Shown in pieces: positions 9,061-36,584 of a stretch of 64,000 bases of DNA. The position numbers and the translations under genes were made by a program. Numbering within the stretch: the stretch's first letter is position 1; each line of letters starts with the position of its first letter. The DNA comes from an uncultured Holophagaceae bacterium (GTDB lineage: Bacteria; Acidobacteriota; Holophagae; Holophagales; Holophagaceae), in contig CAIWKE010000011.1 in the NCBI GenBank assembly GCA_903913215.1, forward strand, positions 186,001 through 250,000. The letters run 5' to 3'. The notes below the pieces were generated by a model, which searched no databases, had not been told where the DNA came from, and worked only from the letters and a program-made list of their open reading frames with translations.

Positions 9061-9507
9061 TTGGAACTGCTCGAGGAATTCCTGCCCTATGCCAAGGGCT
9101 GCCTGAAGCACGTCTCGGAGCGGGCGCGCCTCGAGGTCATCCTGGGCCAGTGGGCCGCCAAGTGGACCGGAAAGCAGCGGCTCTTTGACTATTCCCGCAG
9201 CCATCACGGCGCTTTCCTGCACTTCAACCAGCTCATGGGCGGCAAGTGGGTCCAGGCCTTCACCTTCGTGGCCACGCGCCGGGAGGGGGTCTGCCTGCGG
9301 GGGCCTGAGCCGGATCGGGATCGCAAGGCCCACAAGTTTCGCCACAATCCGCTTGATGCGGCCCCCCTCGATGCCCTCTTCGAGGCCTGGTCCCTGCACC
9401 CCGAGGCCCGGCCCTGCGGCCACGCCCTGGAGTTCTTCCTGGAGGAGACCCCGGACGAGGTCTGGGCGGCCTGCCTGGCCGAGGCCCTGGTCCACCTGGG
9501 CAAGTGA
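9061..9507 (+). CDS. hypothetical protein, 148 aa
   Basis: Starts at TTG. A GGAGG at 9049-9053 sits seven bases upstream and decides this start over the out-of-frame ATG at 9035. The product is soluble, with no signal peptide or membrane segment. It has Trp- and His-rich stretches (FDYSRSHHGAFLHFN, FRHNPLDAAPLDALFEAW). I do not recognise the family. It is divergent from the CHASE kinase and 41 bp upstream of the Phe leader peptide, so it could share a transcript with pheA. Confidence 0.75.
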   Translation: MELLEEFLPYAKGCLKHVSERARLEVILGQWAAKWTGKQRLFDYSRSHHGAFLHFNQLMGGKWVQAFTFVATRREGVCLRGPEPDRDRKAHKFRHNPLDAAPLDALFEAWSLHPEARPCGHALEFFLEETPDEVWAACLAEALVHLGK

Positions 9508-9548
9508 TCCTTGCGCCTGTCATTCAAATAGGGCAGAGTTTCAGAACC

Positions 9549-9617
9549 ATGAGCACCTCGGCCCGCTTCTTTTTCTTTAGCTTTCGCACCTCGGGTGCGA
9601 GGGTAAGCGGCGTCTAG
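9549..9617 (+). CDS. pheL: Phe-rich leader peptide of the pheA operon
   Basis: A 22-codon ORF (ATG 9549, TAG 9615) reading MSTSARFFFFSF at its start: four consecutive Phe codons, then Ser and a fifth Phe (9567-9584). It ends 64 bp before pheA and directly precedes an intrinsic terminator. Six Phe-context codons in such a short frame upstream of a Phe biosynthesis gene are the hallmark of ribosome-mediated attenuation, as in enteric pheL. The name pheL is given by function and position, not by sequence homology. Confidence 0.88.
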   Translation: MSTSARFFFFSFRTSGARVSGV

Positions 9618-9672
9618 ATCCCACCGCTTCCGCCATCGCCCCCGAGACCTCACGGCTCGGGGGCTTTCGTTT
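9585..9672 (+). terminator. pheA transcription attenuator (hairpins plus intrinsic terminator)
   Basis: The terminator stem is GCCCCCGAG (9638-9646) with CTCGGGGGC (9656-9664), followed by TTTCGTTT. Upstream, CGCACC-TCG-GGTGCG (9585-9599) can form a first hairpin just after the Phe codons. A candidate antiterminator pairs 9601-9612 (GGG..GGCG) with 9631-9641 (CGCC..CCC), taking bases from the terminator stem. A ribosome stalled on the Phe codons would leave 9601-9612 free; one that reaches the stop codon would cover it. The terminator is seen directly; the antiterminator pairing is inference. Confidence 0.85.
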
Positions 9673-9681
9673 GGAGACCCC

Positions 9682-10791
9682 ATGACCCCCTCCGACCTCT
9701 CCAGCCTTCGGCAGGCCATCGATGCCGTGGATGATCAGGTGCTGGCCCTGTTGAACCACCGGGCCGGTCTGGCCGCAGAGGTTGGCCGCCTCAAGGCCGT
9801 CTCGGCGCCGGAGGCGCCCTTCCATGTGCCTCGTCGGGAGCGGGAGGTGCTGGCCCGCCTGGAGGCCGCCAACCCTGGCCCCTTCCCCTCGGCGGCGGTG
9901 CGGACGGTCTTCCAGGAGGTCATGAGCGCCTGTCTCAGCCTGGAGAAGCCGTTGCGGGTGGCCTTCCTGGGGCCCGAGGGCACCTTCACGCACCTGGCGG
10001 CCCGGCAGCAGTTCGGCGGCTCCAGCCAGGCGCTGCCCCAAGGCACCATCGCGGCCGTGTTCCAGGCCGTGGAGCGCCAGCGGGCGGACTACGGCGTGGT
10101 GCCCGTGGAGAACGCCACCGAGGGGGCCGTGGAGTCCACCTTGGACGCCTTCCTGGATAGCCCCGTCCGTATCTGCGCCGAGATCCTCCTGCCCGTCGAC
10201 CAGGCCCTGCTGCTGCGCCCGGACTTGGACCTGGGCTCCGTGCGCCGGGTCTATTCCCACCCCCAGGCCCTGGGCCAGTGCCGCCGCTGGCTGGAGACAA
10301 ACCTGCCCCACGCGGACCGGGTGGAGGCCCCCTCGACGTCTGAAGCCGCCCGCCTGGCCCGGGAGGACGCCGAAGGCGCCGCCGTGGCCTCGGAGATGGC
10401 CGCGGAGCTCTTCGGCCTCAAGGTGGCCGAGACCAAGATCCAGGATCTGGCCGCCAACGCCACCCGCTTCATCGTGCTGGGACCCAAGGCCTCGGAGCCC
10501 ACGGGCCGGGACCGCACCACCCTGCTGGCCATGGCCCAGGACGGGCCCGGCGCCCTGTTGCGCCTGCTGGAGCCCCTGGCCCGGCGGGGCCTGAACCTGA
10601 GCCGCATCCAGAGCCGGCCCACCCGCCGCAAGCTCTGGGAGTACGCCTTCTTCCTGGATGTCGAGGGCCACGAAGCCGATCCGCTCATGGCCGAGGCCCT
10701 GACCGATCTGCGAGACGCCTGTGCCTCCCTCAAGGTGCTGGGGAGCTACCCCCAGGCCACCATGCAGCCCCTTGCCGAAGGTGCGAAATGA
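9682..10791 (+). CDS. pheA: bifunctional chorismate mutase / prephenate dehydratase
   Basis: Converts chorismate to prephenate and prephenate to phenylpyruvate, the Phe branch. Residues 1-90 are an AroQ chorismate mutase helical domain (LRQAIDAVDDQVLALLNHRAGLA). Residues about 95-275 are prephenate dehydratase (FLGPEGTFTHLAA, then NATRFIVLG with the catalytic Thr-Arg-Phe). Residues about 280-355 are an ACT domain for Phe feedback (GALLRLLEPLARRGLNLSRI, QSRP in place of the usual ESRP). Length 369 is typical of P-proteins. It is preceded by the Phe leader and attenuator and overlaps the DAHP synthase start by ATGA, giving one translationally coupled operon. Confidence 0.97.
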   Translation: MTPSDLSSLRQAIDAVDDQVLALLNHRAGLAAEVGRLKAVSAPEAPFHVPRREREVLARLEAANPGPFPSAAVRTVFQEVMSACLSLEKPLRVAFLGPEGTFTHLAARQQFGGSSQALPQGTIAAVFQAVERQRADYGVVPVENATEGAVESTLDAFLDSPVRICAEILLPVDQALLLRPDLDLGSVRRVYSHPQALGQCRRWLETNLPHADRVEAPSTSEAARLAREDAEGAAVASEMAAELFGLKVAETKIQDLAANATRFIVLGPKASEPTGRDRTTLLAMAQDGPGALLRLLEPLARRGLNLSRIQSRPTRRKLWEYAFFLDVEGHEADPLMAEALTDLRDACASLKVLGSYPQATMQPLAEGAK

Positions 10792-12122
10792 CCGTCGCGA
10801 TCCCGACCTGGACCCCAGACAGCTGGAAGTCCCACCGAGCGGCCCAGCAGCCCACTTACCGCGACCCGCAGGCGCTGCAGACGGTGCTGACCGAGCTGGG
10901 CGAGCTGCCCCCCCTGGTGGTGGCCGAGGAGATTGATCACCTGAACGGCCTTTTGGCAGAGGCCGTCGCGGGGAAGCGCTTCCTGCTCCAGGGCGGGGAC
11001 TGCGCCGAGGCCTTCGGCGACTGCCGGGGCGGGCTCATCCAGGACAAGCTGCGGGTGCTGCTCCAGATGTCCGTGCTCATCACCCACGGCGGGCGCACCG
11101 GCGTCATCCACCTGGGGCGCATCGCGGGCCAGTATGCCAAGCCCCGCAGCGGCATGACCGAAGTGGTCGATGGCCGCGAAGTGCCGGTCTACCGCGGCGA
11201 CCTGATCAATGGCCTGGACCCCGGGCAGCGGGAGGCGGACCCCAAGCGGCTGATGGAGGCCTATCACCGCTCGGCCGTGACCCTCAACCATCTGCGGGCT
11301 CTGGTGGATGGTGGCTTCGCCGACCTGCACCACCCGGAGCACTGGGACCTGCCCTGGAGCCGCGAGGACGCGGGTCACTACCTGGAGACCCTGGATCAGG
11401 TGCGGGCCTCTCTGGACTTCGTCCAGCGCCTGGGCGGCCTGCCCGAGAACCTCCGCACCGGTGAGCTGTTCACCAGCCACGAGGCCCTGCACCTGCCCTT
11501 CGAGACGGCCTTGACCCGCTGGGTGCCGGACAAGGGCGCCCACTACAACCTGGGCGCCCACTTCCTGTGGATCGGCGAGCGGACCCGCCAGCTGGACGGT
11601 GCCCACCTGGAATACATCCGCGGTCTCGCCAACCCCATCGGCCTCAAGGTGGGCGCCACCATGAGCCCCGATGAGCTGAAACAGGTGCTGGCCAAGCTGG
11701 ACCCCCAGCGGGTGCCGGGGCGCCTGACCCTCATAACCCGCTTCGGCGCCGGCAAGGCGGCGGCGGTGCTGCCGGGCCTGGTGGAGGCCGCCCGGGCCGA
11801 GGGCCATCCCGTGCTCTGGAGCAGCGACCCCATGCACGGCAACGGCCGCACCACGCCCGGGGGCCTCAAGACCCGCTTCTTCGGGGACATCCTCCAGGAG
11901 CTGCAGGAGGTCGCGGAACTGCACCGGACCCTGGGCTCCCGCCTGGGGGCCGTCCACTTCGAGCTGACGGGCGAGCCCGTGACCGAGTGCACCGGCGGCG
12001 TCGAGGGCCTGGTGGAGGCGGACCTCCTGCGGGCCTACAAGAGCGGCTGCGACCCCCGCCTCAACCGTAGCCAGAGCCTGGAGATGGCCTTCCTCCTGGC
12101 CAAGATGATCCGGGAGGGGTAG
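10788..12122 (+). CDS. type II 3-deoxy-7-phosphoheptulonate (DAHP) synthase
   Basis: Condenses PEP and erythrose-4-phosphate, the first step of the shikimate pathway. The 444 residues carry type II (plant/mycobacterial) signatures: RFLLQGGDCAEAF, HLGRIAGQYAKPRS, ERTRQLDGAHLEY and SSDPMHGNG. The start overlaps the pheA stop (ATGA). Being downstream of pheA under one Phe attenuator ties carbon entry into the aromatic pathway to Phe supply. No fused chorismate mutase is seen; that activity is supplied by PheA. Confidence 0.97.
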   Translation: MTVAIPTWTPDSWKSHRAAQQPTYRDPQALQTVLTELGELPPLVVAEEIDHLNGLLAEAVAGKRFLLQGGDCAEAFGDCRGGLIQDKLRVLLQMSVLITHGGRTGVIHLGRIAGQYAKPRSGMTEVVDGREVPVYRGDLINGLDPGQREADPKRLMEAYHRSAVTLNHLRALVDGGFADLHHPEHWDLPWSREDAGHYLETLDQVRASLDFVQRLGGLPENLRTGELFTSHEALHLPFETALTRWVPDKGAHYNLGAHFLWIGERTRQLDGAHLEYIRGLANPIGLKVGATMSPDELKQVLAKLDPQRVPGRLTLITRFGAGKAAAVLPGLVEAARAEGHPVLWSSDPMHGNGRTTPGGLKTRFFGDILQELQEVAELHRTLGSRLGAVHFELTGEPVTECTGGVEGLVEADLLRAYKSGCDPRLNRSQSLEMAFLLAKMIREG

Positions 12123-27637: not shown

Positions 27638-28765
27638 TCAGCGGAGGGACACGTCCCGCCCACGCCAGTGGTTCACGCCGCGCAGGCGGTCGCCGAGGGC
27701 CCAGGCGGTGCCGGTGGCAAAGACCAGGATGTTGAGGGGCCAGAGCGCCCAGAGCAGGTCCATGGGGCGGCCGCTGAGGCGCTGCTGCACATCGCCGGAG
27801 AGGGCGGGCACCAGCAGCCAGAGCAGGAGAGCCAACACCGGGTGTCCGGCGAAAGGCAGCCAGAGCGGCGCCAGCCCGACCCCCAAGGCGCAGGGGATGA
27901 GCGGAGGGAGGAGCCACCAGCCGGGCAGGGCGGCGGCGTTCTTTCGCATGGCCCGCACCAGCTCGCCCAGGCCGTGGTACATGCGCAGGTGCAGATCAGG
28001 ACCGCCGCAGGCCACGCGGTTCGTGAAGCCTGCAGCTTTTACGCGCCGGGCCAGCATCATGTCGTCGATGGCCTCCAGGGGTGCTGCGGCGTGGCCCCCT
28101 GCGCCCTCATAGACCTCGCGGCGCACCAGCGTGAAGGCACCCACGCCACAGAAGGCCAGCCGGCGGGGATTGGGCACTTGGTGGGGCGGAACCAGCACCA
28201 GGAAGGCCGAGGCCGCCAACGGGAGCACCAGGCGCTCGGCGGGGCTGACGGCGTCGATGGCGGGCAGCAGGGCCAGGATGTCCGTGGGCTGGGCCAGGGC
28301 GAAAGCCAGGGCACGACGCAACAGGGAAGGCGAGGCATGCACATCCCCGTCGGCGAAGAGCAGCCACTGGGCCGCCTTGGCTTCCGGTTGGCGGGAGGCC
28401 AGGTCCAGGGCATGGTTCTTCCCCAGCCACCCAGGCGGCAGCTCCTCGTTGCGCAGCACACGCAGACGCCCGGGATGGGCGGCCTCGCGCTGGCGGAGCA
28501 GCTCGGAGCTGCCATCGGTGGACCCGTCATCCACCACCAGGATCCGCAGGTTCGGATAGTCCTGGGCCAGCCAGGAGTCGAGGGCCGGGCCCACCTCCAG
28601 CACCTCGTCGCGTACGGGGATGCAGAGGCAGATGGACGGCAACTCATCGGGCAGGGCAGGGTCGGGTTCCAGCTGGGGCAGGCGATTCCAGTGCCGGCGC
28701 AGCATGATCAGTCCCAGAAGGATCAGGGTCGTGGAACCCCAGGCGGCGTAGGTCAGGAAGCTCAT
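27638..28765 (-). CDS. family 2 glycosyltransferase with C-terminal membrane segments
   Basis: 375 residues. One N-terminal membrane segment, then a GT-A fold: LCIPVRDE, VVDDGSTDGS, the DxD-type metal site FADGDVHAS, then DDMMLARR. Two or three membrane helices follow at about 285-365. The architecture resembles the hopanoid-biosynthesis HpnB and carotenoid CrtQ group, but the acceptor cannot be told. The start overlaps the ClC stop (ATGA), so the two are co-translated. Confidence 0.87.
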   Translation of the reverse strand: MSFLTYAAWGSTTLILLGLIMLRRHWNRLPQLEPDPALPDELPSICLCIPVRDEVLEVGPALDSWLAQDYPNLRILVVDDGSTDGSSELLRQREAAHPGRLRVLRNEELPPGWLGKNHALDLASRQPEAKAAQWLLFADGDVHASPSLLRRALAFALAQPTDILALLPAIDAVSPAERLVLPLAASAFLVLVPPHQVPNPRRLAFCGVGAFTLVRREVYEGAGGHAAAPLEAIDDMMLARRVKAAGFTNRVACGGPDLHLRMYHGLGELVRAMRKNAAALPGWWLLPPLIPCALGVGLAPLWLPFAGHPVLALLLWLLVPALSGDVQQRLSGRPMDLLWALWPLNILVFATGTAWALGDRLRGVNHWRGRDVSLR

Positions 28766-36263: not shown

Positions 36264-36354
36264 CATGCCTCCACGCATGAAGTCGTGGAAGCGGGGCGGA
36301 TTTCCTGAGGGGAAACCATGGCCCTGCCCGTGCCCACGACGGGGGGTGAGGTGG

Positions 36355-36540
36355 TGGACCGGTCTCCGGGCTCGCACGCGACAGGGGCCTTTCAGCTCCC
36401 CTCAGACCTTCCCAGGAAAACCCCAGTGGTCTGAGCTTTAAGTCTCACGCCGGACTGGCTTGGCGTGGTGCATACCGTTGCGGGGCAGCGCAGGATTCAA
36501 ACCTGCTTCCCGAACATCCAACACAGGAATGTAAGAACCC
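36355..36540 (-). promoter_or_regulatory. cobalamin (adenosylcobalamin) riboswitch
   Basis: On the minus strand the conserved parts occur in order: GGTTCTT, CGGGAAGCAGG, TTTGAATCC, GCTGCCCCGCAACGGTA, the CCACTGGG box, GGGAAGG, then AGCCCGGAGACCGG near the 3' end. This matches the AdoCbl-riboswitch core. It lies about 90 bp upstream of btuB. No T-run terminator follows, so control is probably at translation initiation. It would repress btuB and, by coupling, btuF-btuC-btuD when cobalamin is plentiful. Confidence 0.94.
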
Positions 36541-36584
36541 CAGAGAACCACAACGGGGGAACCCCAGGCAAGTAGAATGGTTCT

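Follow-up and report, generated by a model that had tools for sequence, protein, structure and literature searches.

Is the pheA gene of an uncultured member of the Holophagaceae (phylum Acidobacteriota) regulated through translation of a short, Phe-rich reading frame located directly upstream of it? We have addressed this question by computational analysis of a 64,000-nt stretch of genomic DNA (here called the window), of the remainder of the host genome, and of related genomes. The nearest named relatives of the host are Geothrix and uncultured Holophagaceae, whose PheA proteins are 83-89% identical to its own. An earlier note on this DNA had proposed a leader-peptide attenuator, responsive to Phe, ahead of an operon for PheA and DAHP synthase.

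The leader frame, its promoter and the operon

The features discussed below are collected in Table 1. The 22-codon frame with five Phe codons in six positions (codons 7, 8, 9, 10 and 12) was as the earlier note had read it, and coordinates and domain matches likewise bore out its assignment of an intrinsic terminator followed by pheA and a type II DAHP synthase gene. Among 807 short ORFs of 8-45 amino acids in the six frames of the window, the leader was the only one with at least 4 Phe residues in any 6 codons. The start of the DAHP synthase gene shares 4 nt with the end of pheA, giving an operon from 9682 to 12122, and the 2 genes were found in this order and on the same strand in all Geothrix-group loci long enough to check. 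No match was obtained in NCBIfam or Pfam for the 148-codon ORF on the upstream side (9061-9507). Elsewhere in the window, on the minus strand at 36340-36557, we observed a cobalamin riboswitch (Rfam RF00174, 72.5 bits).

Table 1. Positions in the window of the pheA leader, its promoter-like and RNA elements, and the genes that follow
Feature	Position	Strand	Details
-35-like box TTGCGC	9511-9516	+	TTG in 35/35 relatives
-10-like box CAGAGT	9534-9539	+	consensus YANNGT; A at position 2 and T at position 6 kept
Leader ORF	9549-9617	+	MSTSARFFFFSFRTSGARVSGV, then stop; ATG 9549-9551, TAG 9615-9617, 22 codons
Control codons Phe7-Phe12	9567-9584	+	TTC TTT TTC TTT AGC TTT
Hairpin 1:2 (putative anti-antiterminator)	9583-9601	+	UUCGCACC-UCG-GGUGCGAG, -10.5 kcal/mol
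Region 2, predicted antiterminator 5' strand	9590-9604	+	13 pairs with 9632-9646
Hairpin AAGCGG/CCGCUU	9605-9629	+	leader stop codon in loop; 94% of pair cells kept
Region 3, predicted antiterminator 3' strand	9632-9646	+	includes terminator 5' arm, common to both structures
Intrinsic terminator	9638-9672	+	stem GCCCCCGAG 9638-9646 / CTCGGGGGC 9656-9664
Terminator U-rich tail	9665-9672	+	TTTCGTTT, directly 3' of stem
SD-like GGAG of pheA	9673-9676		pheA ATG at 9682
pheA, bifunctional chorismate mutase-prephenate dehydratase	9682-10791	+	NCBIfam prephenate dehydratase, 9e-86
Class II DAHP synthase	10788-12122	+	PF01474, 1.8e-172; TIGR01358, 1.3e-169

From pheA loci of public genomes and of the genus we obtained 35 distinct upstream sequences of the Geothrix group, and the start, frame, stop and Phe codons of the leader, together with the terminator, were kept in all of them. 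The cultured species Geothrix fermentans is among the organisms that retain the element. Loss of the frame or of the Phe codons in close relatives had been named beforehand as a test of the attenuator, which thus came through it intact. The leader is 21 or 22 codons long among the relatives, that is, it differs by a whole codon, and the spacer to the 3' side of its stop codon shows single-base insertions and deletions. Within the Phe cluster, Phe8, Phe10 and Phe12 were kept in 32/33, 32/33 and 33/33 distinct alignment rows, respectively, and codon 9 was variable (Ala, Phe, Pro, Leu and others). TTT, a rare codon that makes up 13% of the Phe codons in the long ORFs of the window, was used at Phe10 in 30 of 34 sequences and at Phe12 in 33 of 34. 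An excess of third-position changes across the whole leader was not found in the alignment of relatives, because constraints on the RNA overlap the code.

Two further observations concern relatives that differ at this locus. Four genomes of the same genus (93-99% complete) yielded neither a prephenate dehydratase domain (PF00800) nor a Phe leader; these organisms are possibly Phe auxotrophs, or may use some unrecognised route. In one other genome (contig C82 of G022, 27784-27908), we observed an orphan Phe leader with its terminator, where a deletion right behind the first few codons of pheA appears to have removed the remainder of that gene together with the gene for DAHP synthase; further downstream, the opposite strand carries a moaA-like frame.

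The conserved promoter-like boxes are situated between the upstream ORF and the leader. They are separated from each other by 17 nt in nearly all relatives and by 18 nt in two, and the distance from the -10-like box to the leader ATG is 12 nt in most relatives and 9 nt in the window. Transcription usually starts 6-8 bases to the 3' side of a -10 box, and the 5' untranslated region of the leader would therefore be only a few bases long. From the position of the promoter, then, the leader ORF is probably leaderless or nearly so. Comparable placements were seen in other leaders of the family that are described below: TATATT, TATAGT or TATGCT is found 7 bases to the 5' side of the ATG in proC leaders, and TTGACG-18-TAAGGT 15 bases to the 5' side in most asnB leaders. 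Leaderless leader peptides are known from S. meliloti (Sinorhizobium), for TrpL (PMC7298713), and from C. glutamicum, where the absence of a ribosome binding site is described for the ilvBNC leader (Morbach et al. 2000, via PMC4046766). These 2 systems resemble the pheA leader in that the ORF begins at or near the 5' end of the transcript, and differ from it in amino acid and in phylum; for the pheA leader, leaderlessness is suggested by promoter position only.

Predicted competing RNA structures and ribosome position

The region from 9525 to 9675 was predicted to fold at -63.2 kcal/mol, with z = -3.7 relative to dinucleotide shuffles. The terminator, which begins 20 bases to the 3' side of the leader stop codon, was predicted at -18.4 kcal/mol; 99% of its pair cells were kept among relatives and 8 of its 11 pairs were invariant. 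Hairpin 1:2, which begins inside the last Phe codon, also had 99% of its pair cells kept. For the antiterminator, the earlier note had favored a rival pairing between 9601-9612 and 9631-9641; both the folding optimum and the conservation of alignment columns point instead to 9590-9604 with 9632-9646. Positions 9633, 9634, 9636 and 9637, which lie outside the ORF and the terminator and are paired in the predicted antiterminator, had conservation values of 0.91-0.97, and the value at 9635, a predicted mismatch, was 0.76. The hairpin at 9605-9629 stacks on the antiterminator, and the two together were predicted at -28.3 kcal/mol.

The mechanism that we propose on these grounds is as follows. Transcription would start a few bases to the 5' side of the leader ATG, and the Phe-rich leader would be translated from its leaderless, or nearly leaderless, end. 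When charged tRNA-Phe is plentiful, the ribosome would reach the stop codon and cover both region 2 and the stop-codon hairpin, leaving region 3 free for region 4, so that the terminator could form and transcription would end near 9672. When charged tRNA-Phe is scarce, the ribosome would stall within the Phe codons, most favorably around codon 10, and cover the 5' half of hairpin 1:2, which otherwise is expected to block the antiterminator. Region 2, once released, could then pair with region 3, and polymerase would continue through both genes of the operon.

That a stall frees the antiterminator, and that the 5' arm of the terminator is common to both structures, is predicted from column conservation and from folding with ribosome masks, in which transcripts of 34 sequences were cut to the 5' side of the terminator 3' arm. 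With the ribosome stalled at Phe10, the terminator 5' arm was sequestered to a mean of 0.80 (range 0.59-0.87); for a ribosome that had reached the stop codon the mean was 0.20 (0.01-0.46), and with a stall at Phe12 only 0.42. It should be noted that arm sequestration was only moderately above that of intervening-segment shuffles (a median of 12 in 100 did as well), and that G-rich base composition accounts for part of it. By folding energy, a median of 3 in 100 such shuffles did as well. The full-length RNA at equilibrium favored the terminator in every ribosome state, and antitermination must therefore be kinetic, in line with the usual assumption about known attenuators.

Each of the structures had 2 pairs that were changed on both sides, which was not above the shuffled controls. 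Covariation did not reach significance because the element is too highly conserved within the genus, and the structures therefore rest on geometry, folding and conserved columns. When partners were slid by 1-3 columns, pairing fell from 94-98% to about 27-54%. Two antiterminator pairs are lost in part of the group: of the 33 distinct rows, 13 are without 9591-9645 and 9 without 9603-9633. In the aggregate, these predictions make a structural case for an antiterminator/terminator switch that is good but not proven.

Related leaders in the Holophagaceae

A covariance model (R1) built from the pheA leader alignment was searched without regard to codons. In the class-wide search, matches were confined to Holophagaceae, and among 396 Acidobacteriota genomes there was one match outside that family. 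Matches at a YchF-like GTPase gene and at a tRNA were rejected as false positives. With this model, pheA was seen to be preceded by a Phe leader in two further genera. In another genus (g6), the leader is on the class II DAHP synthase gene, with FFYYFGF and FYYFGF in the 2 loci, and the pheA genes inspected there were without one. Two more Holophagaceae genera have PheA as a fusion with a type I DAHP synthase, and Phe/Tyr-rich leaders precede the fusion gene in three loci; the domains, checked in two of these, were CM, PDT, ACT and DAHP_synth_1. Phe leaders sought at pheA of Nitrospira and at other outgroup loci gave none that was convincing. Pathway entry is thus coupled to the Phe branch repeatedly, through more than one gene arrangement: depending on the genus, a single Phe signal appears to link the first enzyme of the shikimate pathway with the Phe branch by way of an operon, a fusion, or a leader on DAHP synthase II alone.

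Leaders with other control codons were also observed. In the host genome, Ile codons precede ilvA (contig C3, 9301-9414), Pro codons precede proB (C36, 73442-73568), and Asn codons precede asnB (C2, about 154550-154719, from a terminator pattern search); these elements are apparent leader-peptide attenuators. Leaders were not seen in the stretches inspected at leuA and hisG of this genome, nor in the part of the region inspected at its two chorismate-binding (trpE-like) genes. Elsewhere in the family, Asn leaders with terminators precede asnB in 12 loci and an asnA-like gene in one, and hence stand before two unrelated asparagine synthetases. Pro leaders precede proC in nine loci and proB in five, aromatic-residue leaders precede type I DAHP synthase genes in two, and His leaders precede hisG in two, one of which carries two leader-terminator units in tandem, at about 520-820 as oriented (HHARHHVAH, then HHHTH). 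From another Acidobacteriota family, we note an aromatic-codon leader, QFFSFTFRYWYT, with a terminator-like hairpin before trpB (contig C25 of G343, 101324-101477).

The most over-represented residue was a product of the gene's pathway in 22 of the 30 leaders listed. Taken individually, the proC leaders, in which enrichment is weak, and the proB and ilvA leaders of the host did not pass the residue-enrichment test. We also ran a shuffle test over all leader classes with the stall set at the last control codon, where 0 to 4 of 100 shuffles were as good for Asn/asnB leaders and none for the FY/DAHPS II leaders. The automatic terminator finder of this test missed five elements and misplaced one (L136), and the 'last codon' was unsuitable in a few leaders (L101, aroG). 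For the pheA leader the test is uninformative, because the mask takes away half of region 2. We lean, by a small margin over even odds, toward the view that in Holophagaceae much of amino-acid biosynthesis is governed by a single attenuator design, which is re-tuned by its control codons, to Asn and Pro among others, and employs leaderless ORFs. The set would constitute a natural series for how one layout gains new amino-acid specificity, and confirmation of its Asn and Pro members would extend the mechanism beyond its known range.

Alternative explanations and known systems

The evidence reviewed above, namely the 35/35 conservation, the kept operon order, the promoter placed for the leader and the sister attenuators, leads us to regard the pheA leader with high confidence as a classical ribosome-mediated transcription attenuator of the E. 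coli trp/pheA type. The central proposal of the earlier note is thereby supported, and the element is almost certainly a real and functional attenuator; very probably, this soil and sediment bacterium makes its Phe enzymes only when Phe is short.

Three other explanations were weighed. The hairpin might be an ordinary terminator, either constitutive or belonging to the 148-aa ORF that it follows, with a Phe-rich frame that is untranslated and conserved for other reasons. Its location downstream of that ORF and the lack of a third-position excess would suit this explanation, yet a conserved promoter intervenes, the frame, stop and Phe codons persist throughout the Geothrix group, other genera keep Phe/Tyr leaders despite diverged sequence, and the codons of the sister leaders match the amino acids of their genes; we judge it very improbable. 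Slightly more improbable still is control of the terminator in trans, by a Phe riboswitch or by a protein bound to hairpin 1:2, with the ORF incidental or supplementary. Against it, nothing resembling a conserved aptamer core is present apart from simple hairpins, the tolerated variation affects, for example, codon 9 and spares codons 8, 10 and 12, and the same layout recurs with other codons for Asn, Pro, His and Ile; in its favor, the hairpins are strong and well conserved and Rfam offers no match that would assign the element.

An equally slight chance attaches to the third explanation, that the leader works mainly through Rho or through translational coupling or reinitiation, and not through the intrinsic terminator. 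Short leader genes from which ribosomes reinitiate have been proposed in a number of phyla, Acidobacteria among them (PMC4833913), but at a distance of about 10-13 nt; here the leader stop codon precedes the pheA ATG by 64 nt, pheA has its own GGAG ribosome site, and the terminator stem is largely invariant. We therefore retain ribosome-mediated attenuation in comparing the element with known systems.

The claim of novelty in the earlier note survived in part. For the new phylum it stood, since no earlier report of such attenuators in Holophagaceae or in Acidobacteriota was found in the searched literature; for Phe leader control of DAHP synthase it did not, that being known in Corynebacterium (PMC11802643). 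No Asn or Pro biosynthetic leader-peptide attenuators were found in the open literature, subscription journals being mostly outside the coverage, and for several phyla leader ORFs have since been suggested within ilvB motifs (PMC10272879). Rfam yielded no leader family at or above the gathering threshold, only weak matches at chance level (E up to 10). The kind of mechanism proposed at pheA is already known, and the lineage-wide set, especially its candidate Asn and Pro specificities, appears the fresher part.

The E. coli pheL-pheA attenuator (Zurawski et al. 1978; Gavini and Pulakat 1991, as summarized in PMC11802643) has, like the element described here, a Phe-rich leader ORF and an intrinsic terminator just before pheA, as well as a mutually exclusive antiterminator and control by charged tRNA-Phe, both of which are predicted here. 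The Acidobacteriota element differs in that its leader is probably leaderless, in that its operon adds a class II DAHP synthase, and in that the Rfam search found no similarity between the two. In C. glutamicum AroR-aroF, as summarized in the same source, a leader peptide with Phe-Tyr-Phe places a DAHP synthase operon under Phe control (Neshat et al. 2014, via PMC11802643), as we propose for the window; that system, going by the same summary, differs in its gene, aroF and not pheA, and in its phylum, and its nearest parallel in our material would be the g6 relatives, with their FYYFGF leader before DAHP synthase II.
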